Below, piece after piece: positions 6,334 to 9,707 of a stretch of DNA of 64,000 bases. The position numbers and the translations under genes are program-made. Source of the stretch: Candidatus Tectimicrobiota bacterium (lineage in GTDB: Bacteria > Tectomicrobia > Entotheonellia > Entotheonellales > Entotheonellaceae); the NCBI GenBank assembly GCA_026005175.1, contig BPKO01000006.1, forward strand, positions 62,001 through 126,000. Direction: 5' to 3'. Below the pieces are notes generated by a model. That model saw only the letters and a list, made by a program, of their open reading frames with translations, did not search any database and was not told the DNA's origin. How positions within the stretch are numbered: position 1 is the first letter of the stretch; each line of letters begins with the position of its first letter.

Positions 6334-8557
6334 GATGAGACGGCATGGGTGGTATTTGGGATTGATCGGTCTGCTGGCGATCGGCCTTTTGGGGGTACCG
6401 ATGGGTCAGGCAGCGGTGATCGAAGTGAGCCAGGCGACCCAGCTCACCGACAGTCCTCGCCACGACCGCAATCCCAGTCTGCTCAAAGCGTCAGATGGCA
6501 CGTGGTGGCTCTTTTTTGCCCGCGGCGAAACGGTCCCGGCGCCTGCCAATCCCGACGCCGATAAATATGACATCTGTTGGCTGAAGTCTACGGACAACGG
6601 GAACACCTGGACGGATGACACCGACGCCAATTGCCTGGAGGTTCCCGACGCGCAGGGCATCGGGGGCTTCTCGCCAGCAGCCGTCGAAGTGGCGCCCGGG
6701 ACCCTCTGGCTTTTCTACAATTCAGGGGACAATTACTACTTCGAATCAACGGACAACGGTGCCACTTGGACGGGGCCCATCGCACTGCCTGCAGATCCCG
6801 AAAGTGCGCCCGTCAATAACCACCTGGACGTGCTGAAAGCCTCGGATGGCAAGATCTGGATCTTCTACTGGAGCGGATCGGTCGTACGCGCCCGGTTCTA
6901 CGATGGTACTTCGTGGTCGGCATCCCAGCAGATCAGTGACCCCAGCCTGGCCTGGATTTGTGTACCCAAGGCCCTGGAAGAGGCCGGCGTTCTCTATGTT
7001 GTTTATTGTGCCAACAACGGCATGTGGCTGGCCCGCTCCACCGACGGAGGCACTACCTGGACGAATACCTTCATCATTGCTCGGGGAGCCCCGGCGGACA
7101 TGGACTTTGATGGGGCTCTGATCCACTATGGAGGCGCCTGGTATTTCTTCTGGGCGCCGTACAACTCGAGCACGGATCACCAGTGGCTCGAGGTCATCTC
7201 CTCCACGGACTTGAGCAGCTGGACGCCGCCGCGGCGGGTAACGGCCGGCGAATATAGCAGCACCACCTGGTGGGACTTCTGGCCAGAGGTGACCACCGGC
7301 GCCAGCCTGGTGCTGTTCTACGCCTCGATGAAAGATGGTTCCGCGCGTGGAGATGTGAATATTTGGGCGTACCACCCCATCGACTGGGACCTCAGCCACG
7401 ATCACTTCGAAGCCATCCAGCCGGCAGTCGATGCAGCGAGCCCGGGAGACACCATCAAGGTTGGACCGGGAACGTATTATGAAAACGTAAGGATTGATAA
7501 AGACCACCTGACGCTACTTTCCAAAGAAGGCCGCGATACCACTTTCATCGTGGGCAGTGCCGATGGTCCCGGCCATGGGACAATCTTTCTGACCAACAAT
7601 ACTTCTGGCGTGCAAATTGGGGACCGGAACCATGGGTTTACCATCGTCGGCTTCGACTTTCCGAATCCAGGGCTCGAAAAGGCAGCTATTTACTTCCAAG
7701 GGCCACACAGCGATACGGTGATTCGCGGCAATGAAATTCAGGCCCAAGGGGAAGCTGGACTGCTCACCGAATTTAACGCCGCAACCACGGGCTTTCTTGT
7801 CGAGCAAAACATCTTTTCAGGGAAGACCTTTGTCGGTGATGAACCCGGAGGCTGCGGTTTTAGTCAGCAGTTCACCGAACCTAACGTGCCGCGGCAACTG
7901 GTGGTCCTTGGACAAGGAGCCAATGCCGCAAACATGACGTTTAAGGAAAACGAGATCACCGGTATTGCCGGCGGCAGCAAGCCAGGGTGCAACAACGATG
8001 AGCAGGGAAATACGCTTGTGACTATTGACGCTGCGGGATCGGTCGGTGAGCGATAACCTGTTTGCCGGGACCTCGACTCGCTTCGCTGCCAGCCTGCGCG
8101 TGCGACGGTCCAATACAATTGTGACGAGGAATACCTTTGCCAGCACGCCCATTGGCCTCCTAGTCGGTGACGCCACGGAGCCAGGTGTACTGCAACAACA
8201 TCACGAACCACCCGCTGGCCGGGTTGGCGTTTATCGGAAGCGGTACGCTGAACGCCGAAAACAACTGGTTGGGGCGATGCCTCTGGACCGTTCCATCCCA
8301 CCCTCAACCCCGGCGGTAGTGGCGATCCGGTCAGCGACAACGTCGACTTTGATCCCTGGCTGACCTCCCCGGCCCCTCCCGCGCCGACCTCGACGGCGAC
8401 TGCAACGCCGATTTCGACGATTTCCTGATTTTCCTCGCTGCGTTCGGAAAGCAGGAAAGGGGATCCGGGCTTCAATCCCGATGCCGACTACGACCACGAC
8501 GGGAAGATCACCTTCGTGGACTACCAGATCTGGTACGGGTTCTTCCTCGGAACCTAA
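6334..8557 (+). CDS. Secreted BNR/Asp-box and beta-helix protein with C-terminal dockerin-like module (several frameshifts)
   Basis: Starts at 6334, set by GGGAGG 8 nt upstream; a Sec signal ends near GQAA. Residues about 80-250 carry three Asp-box (BNR) motifs, STDNGNTWT, STDNGATWT and STDGGTTWT, typical of sialidase-type beta-propellers. From about residue 360 the protein becomes a right-handed beta-helix (AIQPAVDAASPGDTIKVGPG, then repeated small-residue turns), ending with ENNWWGDASGP, a classic parallel beta-helix block. After frame changes near 8035, 8185, 8265 and 8380 the end reads DLDGDCNADFDDFLIFLAAFG and DADYDHDGKITFVDYQIW: two EF-hand-type calcium loops arranged as in dockerin type I. 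A carbohydrate-binding or glycan-cleaving role is inferred; sialidase catalytic residues were not verified. The frameshifts may be consensus errors. Codon use and GC are lower than in the neighbours. Confidence 0.75.
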
Positions 8558-8567
8558 ATGGCCATCA

Positions 8568-8635
8568 GGGGGTGGGCCTTTGCTCACCCCCTTCTTGCAG
8601 CACAAAGGGCCTGCGGGTGTACGCCCGCAGGGCCC
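8568..8635 (+). terminator. Tandem hairpins after the dockerin-protein gene
   Basis: First hairpin: GGGGGTG (8568-8574) pairs with CACCCCC (8585-8591), starting 11 nt after the stop. Second: GGGCCTGCGGG (8607-8617) pairs with CCCGCAGGGCCC (8624-8635) with one bulge. Neither has a strong T tract, so these may be terminators or 3'-end stabilisers. Confidence 0.5.
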
Positions 8636-8793
8636 CGAAAAGGACGGCCAGGGCACTTGCTACTGCCTGCCGCAGGACATGCGAACGGCAAAATAACCGT
8701 CACTGTCTCACGGTTGAGGCAGGCATCCGACATTCGTAACGCTTCGTATGTATACAGGAAAAACTGCATTTCACCCTTCTCCTGTCTCTTCTG

Positions 8794-8811
8794 GTTCTCA
8801 AATCTGAGAAC
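8794..8811. promoter_or_regulatory. Inverted repeat, possible operator
   Basis: GTTCTCA and TGAGAAC separated by AATC form an 18-bp dyad in the A/T- and C/T-rich gap before the cohesin-like gene. The gap 8558-8953 otherwise holds the hairpins at 8568-8635 and no gene. A possible -10 (TACAAT, 8864-8869) lacks a clear -35. Confidence 0.35.
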
Positions 8812-8953
8812 ACCCTTGTCTTTTTCTTCGGCCCTCTAAACCCCTTTCATATCATTTTTCCCATACAATCCTCGTGCCAAAAGCCAATGGCATGCCTTTT
8901 GCTGAATTTTTCATACAGACACAGTGGTTGCCGTAAGTATAGGAGGATCTGTC

Positions 8954-9514
8954 ATGAAAAAAACTCTTAGGGCTCCTGCTGGTCTGCCTGCTTCCCGCCT
9001 TGGGCTGGGGCCGACCCTGTTACGGTTTTTTTCGAGCCGTCCACTTCGGTGGTGTTGCCCGGGGGACGTTTTCACCGTCGACATCAAAGCCAATATCCCA
9101 GACCCCGTGCTGGGCTGGGGGCTGGGATGTCACGTTTGATTCGAGCCTCCTTACCCTCGTGGGGGCGCCGGCCATTGGCCCATCCTGGGTTGCGGCTTTT
9201 GCTCCTGATGGCGATGGGCTGGCCGGACTGGCCTTTCCGCTGCCTGTCTCCGGCAACGATATCCTCCTGGCTACCCTCACCTTTGAGGCGACGGCCTTAG
9301 GGACTTCCTCGCTGATTGCCAGCGTGACCCCGCTTGACCTCACCGAAGGATTCCCCCTGGCGCCTCCTGCCTCGCCGGGAAGCTTTGCCGATGTGGTGTT
9401 CACGGCGGGCACGGTCCCACGTGGTGCCCGAACCCGGCACGGTGGTGGCTGCTGAGCAGCGGCCTTTTTGGCCTGCTCGGCTACAGCTGGCGGCGCCGGC
9501 AGCTGGCAGCATGA
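8954..9514 (+). CDS. Cohesin-like PEP-CTERM surface protein (several frameshifts)
   Basis: ATG at 8954 has a perfect AGGAGG 7 nt upstream. Reading across single-base indels near 8970, 9030, 9055, 9110 and 9420 gives: a signal peptide (MKKTL plus leucine-rich core), LPGDVFTVDIKANI, DVTFDSSLLTLVGAPAIG, SGNDILLATLTFEATALG, and a C-terminus VPEPGT, a hydrophobic stretch, then YSWRRRQLAA. The PGD-FTVDI, VTFDSSLL and ATLTFEA blocks match the cohesin fold. The PEP motif, membrane helix and arginine cluster form a PEP-CTERM signal, which is recognised by an exosortase that sorts proteins to the cell surface. About 185 residues. The gene follows one whose product ends in a dockerin-like module, so the two may bind each other. 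No exosortase gene is in the window. Confidence 0.7.
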
Positions 9515-9524
9515 GCCTATTGAG

Positions 9525-9577
9525 AAAGGGGACAGGCTCCTTTTTGTGGGGCGCCGAAAAAGGAGCCTGTCCCCTTT
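9525..9577. repeat. REP-like inverted repeat pair
   Basis: Two perfect 21-bp arms (9525-9545 and 9557-9577) flank an 11-nt spacer. Each arm carries AGGGGACAGGCTCC bounded by A/T tracts, related to the half element at 1458-1480. As RNA it would fold into a long stem and could end transcription of the preceding gene, since the right arm ends CCCCTTT. The rest of the 9515-9707 gap holds no recognisable gene. Confidence 0.65.
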
Positions 9578-9707
9578 AGGCGTCTTGTGCAACCGCTTCC
9601 GGAGCGAATGAAGCAAGCGGGGGATATACACGGGGGCAGGAACTGGTCTATAGTATGCAGCCGGCCCTGGACGCTCCCCGGGGGCGCCTTGCAGGAGGGA
9701 GGAGCCG

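Follow-up and report, generated by a model that had tools for sequence, protein, structure and literature searches.

Pairs of cohesin and dockerin modules are known from the cellulosomes of Clostridium, Acetivibrio and Bacteroides cellulosolvens, with which the locus reported here has its domain families in common (as found by profile, sequence or fold search) and, presumably, a calcium-dependent plug-and-socket mode of binding. Unlike cellulosomes, which are held by an SLH or Gram-positive sortase anchor, the cassettes considered below have an exosortase tail as anchor, one cohesin per protein, no scaffoldin and no cellulose-binding module that could be seen, and their effectors are BNR/beta-helix proteins, peptidases, nucleases, a lipase and an esterase. 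A Pfam search of the genome harbouring the locus did not yield the multi-cohesin scaffoldin with a cellulose-binding module by which a cellulosome is recognized, and the pair is classed with cohesin-dockerin docking, as a variant of it, and not with the cellulosomes.

Cohesin and dockerin modules outside cellulosomes have reportedly been treated by Peer et al. 2009. Such modules are described in ANME archaea (PMC5244752, PMC9012536), in the planctosome of Nemodlikiaceae (PMC6461901) and in Ca. Stygibacter (PMC8542988) and, as far as the accessible portions of these sources go, resemble the cassettes in occurring outside cellulose degradation and in having peptidase and reprolysin-like effectors. 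Within the same portions they appear as scaffolds, adaptors or unpaired modules, whose function is termed unknown or hypothetical, and no pairing of one dockerin gene with a single-cohesin PEP-CTERM gene is described. An exosortase occurs together with cohesins or dockerins in the ANME study PMC5244752, the available part of which treats them as separate features and states that what cohesins and dockerins do in noncellulosomal settings is unknown.

The PEP-CTERM/exosortase system with its PrsK-PrsR sigma-54 regulon (PMC1569441; RpoN-dependent pepA in PMC9850573), so far as the available sections of these papers describe it, shares the tail, the exosortase and the PrsR gene with our genome, and the second gene of the locus further resembles it in having a sigma-54 box, located 50 nt ahead of its start codon, and a large upstream gap. 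Unlike in that regulon, as presented in the same sections, the PEP-CTERM protein found here is a cohesin-like one; the anchored protein would therefore offer a socket to a different secreted protein. No paper that deals with PEP-CTERM together with cohesin or dockerin was found in the literature searched, outside which lay most subscription papers, and absence of such a pair from print is not shown.

The window, i.e. the whole stretch of 64,000 nucleotides that was analysed, contains two neighbouring genes that quite probably form a surface docking cassette, in which an exosortase-anchored cohesin docks a single dockerin-bearing secreted protein; binding is inferred, in the absence of any binding data. 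The features are as follows.

6335..8557, plus strand: gene 1, a secreted BNR/beta-helix protein with a C-terminal dockerin (ORF list, Pfam, direct reading)
6674..7066, plus strand: BNR_2 repeat region, residues 114-244 (Pfam 41.1 bits, cut-off 31.4)
7406..7876, plus strand: beta-helix-like region (DUF1565 / Beta_helix), below threshold (16.8 bits, cut-off 20.3)
8380..8554, plus strand: dockerin with two calcium-loop repeats and one frame break between them (PDB search, profile, comparison with G731)
8567..8592, plus strand: strong terminator-like hairpin after gene 1 (-23.6 kcal/mol, z -2.75; unlisted in a separate scan)
8888..8903, plus strand: sigma-54 box of the -24/-12 type (pattern scan)
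8954..9514, plus strand: gene 2, with a signal peptide, one cohesin-like domain, a PEP-CTERM tail and about six frame breaks (frame-joined reading, Pfam, TIGRFAM)
9013..9416, plus strand: cohesin-like domain of about 135 residues (profile and profile-profile comparison, alignment with G731)
9425..9511, plus strand: PEP-CTERM tail with PEP motif, hydrophobic stretch and basic end (TIGR02595, PF07589)

Gene 1 starts at the ATG at 6335, with a signal-peptide-like stretch that was read directly, and its frame stays open up to 8053; past about 8040 the reading has to follow several frame changes before reaching the terminal stop at 8555-8557. Its C-terminus consists of about 58 residues with two EF-hand calcium loops at dockerin spacing, which satisfies the definition of a type I dockerin. 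Among PDB sequences this segment is matched best by 2y3n_B, a dockerin chain from a cellulosome (E 4.3e-5), and a profile built from 19 PF00404 matches, taken from other loci only, scores it at 31.8 bits, whereas 1000 shuffles reach at most 11.5 bits. Pfam Dockerin_1 (PF00404) itself gave no match at E<=10 to the frame-joined reading of gene 1, which contains X residues; the counterpart dockerin in G731, a genome of another phylum, reaches 32.4 bits with this model (cut-off 22.9). Another weak dockerin match in the genome of the window (C1:64884) was rejected, as the dockerin is not terminal.

Gene 2 runs from the ATG at 8954 to the TGA at 9512-9514. Its tail scores 17.0 bits with TIGR02595 (cut-off 16) and 20.0 bits with PF07589, slightly below the cut-off of 20.7, and the gene satisfies the definition of a PEP-CTERM protein (C-terminal PEP motif, hydrophobic helix and basic tail, with an exosortase in the genome). 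The domain ahead of the tail had no match to Pfam Cohesin (PF00963) at E<=10, and a PDB sequence search with it found no cohesin. The domain nevertheless scores 15.1 bits with a profile made of 27 PF00963 domains, which were taken from other genomes, compared with a best of 8.2 bits in 600 shuffles; among the matches listed, shuffles of the window sequence itself reach at best 5.6 bits, and four PEP-CTERM controls devoid of cohesin are absent. When aligned with three relatives and compared with PF00963 cohesins at the profile-profile level, it is matched with a probability of 97.3 (E 2.1e-11). Relatives occupying the role of gene 2 score up to 39.4 and 56.6 bits with PF00963, others falling below the cut-off of 24.1 or remaining unmatched; the domain is called cohesin-like because of this mixed picture and the missing match in the window. 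An AlphaFold model of middling quality (pLDDT 65.5) of the closest relative allowed, from G001 (a sister genus in the same family), has cohesins as its best structural rows, with Z of at most 7.7, the level at which the tool warns of a merely common arrangement, and Foldseek gave an E of 0.018; a cohesin fold predicted in this way is suggestive only. As judged from the profile tests and the intact relatives, the assignment of the domain as a distant, putative cohesin is supported. A further match in the genome of the window, on C2, was rejected as another PEP-CTERM protein without cohesin.

The preliminary description had claimed that the first product ends in two dockerin-type EF-hand loops, which are indeed present, and that the second is a short cohesin-like protein with a signal peptide and a PEP-CTERM tail, which is confirmed by the TIGR02595 score and by homology to cohesins at the profile level. 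It had also named three Pfam models as the appropriate check, and the outcome is divided: in the window PF00963 and PF00404 failed and PF07589 was just missed, but TIGR02595 and the custom profiles were positive. The lack of any significant match after frame repair, which it had put forward as a refutation, holds for the Pfam models and not for the custom cohesin and dockerin profiles, both of which score above their shuffles.

The two genes are separated by about 400 bases that include the hairpin and the sigma-54 box, so that they are possibly not co-transcribed, and gene 2 may be expressed separately, within a PEP-CTERM regulon. Scanning the genome for the box pattern gave 37 places, as against one in the reversed control, and six boxes precede PEP-CTERM genes (four found by script; the one on C12 and that of the window by eye); the box alone is weak proof, because most of the other places do not lie before PEP-CTERM genes. 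In the accessible part of Haft 2006 (PMC1569441), sigma-54 boxes of PEP-CTERM genes in Proteobacteria lie on average 71 nt ahead (SD 38.5). Enhancer motif 1 of that study was not found in the window by eye. Just past the cohesin gene, at 9522-9578, a long inverted repeat with arms GGGGACAGGCTCC was seen by eye, which is either a terminator or a mobile repeat.

The genome possesses one exosortase, recognized by the XrtA-type model at 224 bits (cut-off 208), close to which lie a further PEP-CTERM gene and the gene for PrsR (TIGR02915 627 bits, cut-off 502.6). Exosortases score above cut-off in all 16 genomes checked (the 13 that hold cassettes, and in addition G787, G230 and G081), and the sister genomes G002 and G003 have no match to exosortase, cohesin or dockerin.

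How would such a cassette operate? Gene 2 would yield a cohesin of small size that is exported; the exosortase of the same genome may process its PEP-CTERM tail, and the protein would then be kept on the cell surface or within an exopolysaccharide layer. Gene 1 would yield the secreted BNR/beta-helix protein, whose calcium-loaded C-terminal dockerin is predicted to plug into this cohesin, and the gene 1 protein would in this way be retained on the producing cell. Binding, its one-to-one stoichiometry and its calcium dependence are inferred from the domain families, without binding data; tail cleavage, sorting and anchoring are inferred from the tail and the exosortase; and the BNR/beta-helix part is inferred to bind or cut a carbohydrate or matrix polymer. 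The one-to-one surface docking pair first suggested for these genes, for which an exosortase was to be looked for and was found, fits the gene order, the domain matches, the XrtA-type enzyme, the 16 further cassettes and the co-variation of partners described below, binding itself remaining an inference.

In total, 17 cassettes were collected from three groups of genomes, namely the family of the window and two other phyla: the window, four in G001, eight in the phylum of G286 and four in the phylum of G364. The four intact cassettes of G001 lie on C201 (SXND01000218.1), C281, C98 and C131; that on C98 passes three Pfam cut-offs (Dockerin_1 38.9, Cohesin 39.4 and PEP-CTERM 25.8 bits) and was reached via its dockerin, the adjoining gene being then identified as a cohesin with a PEP-CTERM tail. 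A PEP-CTERM cohesin profile run over 386 genomes led to G286 and G364. With a wider profile, 398 genomes of the phylum of G286 gave 15 places in 11 genomes, eight of them full length, all eight with a dockerin-ended neighbour on the same strand, and seven tail-only places without one nearby; the eight genomes of the phylum of G364 gave four cassettes. A scan of genome contigs gave four loci (the G001 contig, L089 and two tail-only matches), and the L089 cohesin has no PEP-CTERM and no dockerin seen alongside. It is part of a PKD-like repeat protein in a record labelled as a Klebsiella pneumoniae MAG, a species name that seems questionable, and is closest to the cohesin of G001.

The dockerin gene is the immediate neighbour in 15 of the 17 cassettes, the exceptions being G786, with a tail-less second cohesin in between, and G785, with three intervening ORFs. 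It comes first in 13 of them, the cohesin preceding it in the other four (G001:C131, G483, G785 and G234), and 14 tails are of the PEP-CTERM type and three are VPAPA or VPIPA variants. By automatic count, a dockerin gene on the same strand accompanies 11 of 12 PEP-CTERM cohesin genes within their locus, and 33 of 37 PEP-CTERM genes classed as cohesin-less lack one; the other four are in cassette loci, one being the L168 cassette, placed among the controls with a cohesin E of 0.1 that falls short of the threshold, and three being further controls inside such loci. The L167 dockerin spans a frame change and was counted by eye. Five cassettes stand outside the 12 automatic cases: L168, the three with VPAPA/VPIPA tails, and the window. 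Cohesin-only matches without a tail were excluded from the cassette count; inspection of three such loci (L169, L170, L171) revealed a dockerin-like neighbour at L169. Also left out of the 17 were G787:C148, which has a stop, and a degenerate cohesin/PEP-CTERM copy at G001:C131:16567, where no dockerin was seen. This second copy (L166) lies some 7 kb away from its intact counterpart, in a stretch that also holds two similar genes resembling phage tail collar proteins.

Is the pair a private one? Dockerins could instead bind cohesins encoded elsewhere, on a multi-cohesin scaffold or on the lipoprotein of contig C4, and the PEP-CTERM cohesin could serve other dockerins, as cross-binding within one species is common in cellulosomes. 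Such a network seems unlikely, and it draws some support from a second cohesin gene in the genome, the only place there with a Pfam cohesin: a lipoprotein with Ig/cadherin repeats and a C-terminal cohesin (39 bits) on C4 (L019 5964-11155), followed by a frame-broken dockerin protein. This cohesin, however, has its own adjacent dockerin gene, and the cassettes of G001 are partly of different types, with matches among the cassettes of other phyla, both of which speak against a network. Other arrangements were encountered as well. In G230, short lipoprotein-type single cohesins adjoin dockerin-ended proteins at L071, L072, L082 and L083, a lipid anchor replacing PEP-CTERM, which makes four of the seven cohesins of that type inspected in this genome paired, the others being L067, L070 and L076, of which two lie close to contig ends. 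In G081 (L087 4365-10418), a cohesin and a papain-like protein, of which the first has a sorting-like C-terminal tail of the PIPATGP type and the second a similar one, stand in a row with a dockerin-bearing subtilase, and in G004, of the class to which the genome of the window belongs, a cohesin and a C-terminal dockerin are combined in a single protein (L086 1146-2252).

A rather improbable explanation is that the genes are neighbours by joint inheritance only, without mutual binding of their products: the cohesin-like domain would be a generic surface domain of the Ig-like kind, and the EF-hand end a calcium-stabilized tail. Calcium-loop repeats are common as stabilizers, the structural matches are middling, no binding data exist, and the dockerin end and the cohesin gene are contiguous DNA, so that joint transfer as a block could yield co-variation without binding. 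The types of the two partners were compared across the 17 cassettes, using only similarities between the three groups and permuting partners within groups, which leaves group relations unchanged. Cohesin and dockerin co-vary with r=0.611 (null mean 0.023, sd 0.139), a value reached by none of 20000 permutations and staying between 0.56 and 0.70 when any one entry is left out. The effector is correlated neither with the cohesin (r=0.08, p=0.36) nor with the dockerin (r=0.17, p=0.25), and controlling for the effector leaves a partial correlation of 0.61 between cohesin and dockerin; effectors thus vary freely while partner types remain matched, contrary to what joint inheritance alone would suggest, and the reversed order in 4 of 17 cassettes likewise tells against it. 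This analysis is limited by 17 entries, short domains with hand-cut ends, and DNA that is contiguous and able to move as a block.

The variety of effectors is considerable: BNR/beta-helix in the window, propeller-like and M4 peptidase proteins in G001, and also GloVer repeats, a reprolysin-like peptidase, a glucuronyl-esterase-like protein with CBM9, nucleases with a lamin tail domain, a GDSL lipase, a collagenase M9, PKD proteins, an NHL propeller and TSP3 proteins. G731 is the nearest out-of-group relative of the window for cohesin (35% identical, E 5e-17) and dockerin (44%, E 4e-16) alike, with effectors unrelated by blastp at 1e-3. G286 (47-57% identical) and G507:C6 have nuclease effectors related to the one of G731, but dockerin and cohesin types other than its own: similarity to G286 is 0.15 for the dockerin and 0.08 for the cohesin, against 0.39 and 0.24 to the window. 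Cassettes with related effectors can differ in both partners, and cassettes with unrelated effectors can match in both, which argues for docking partners and against mere neighbours. Three dockerin proteins (L023, L167, L211), from three genomes in two groups and each beside a PEP-CTERM cohesin, end in PGPSGLVP or PGPSGVAP, an ending that may mark one docking subtype.

The readings of the two genes cross about ten frame breaks, which look like assembly errors, although no read data are at hand; they are taken as such because the assembly, in 14 contigs, is 77% complete and other genes are split too, for example a cysteine-synthase-like gene at 1479-2572. Those ten or so breaks could also denote a decayed pseudogene pair, the docking pair being made by relatives only, which is highly improbable given the state of the assembly, the splitting of other genes, and a break-joined reading that retains a motif and tail resembling those of G731.

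Beyond the docking cassette of the window, it is somewhat favoured that these loci represent a widespread class not yet described, with one exosortase-anchored cohesin per dockerin-bearing effector, co-evolving subtypes, effectors that are swapped, and parallel surface-display channels in one cell, as the four cassettes of G001 would provide. To our knowledge, the surface role of most PEP-CTERM proteins is largely open. A linked pair with matched subtypes predicts cognate partners, so that this question and that of the noncellulosomal modules both become directly testable; some PEP-CTERM proteins are suggested to be sockets for secreted enzymes, and the matched subtypes could provide new orthogonal docking pairs.
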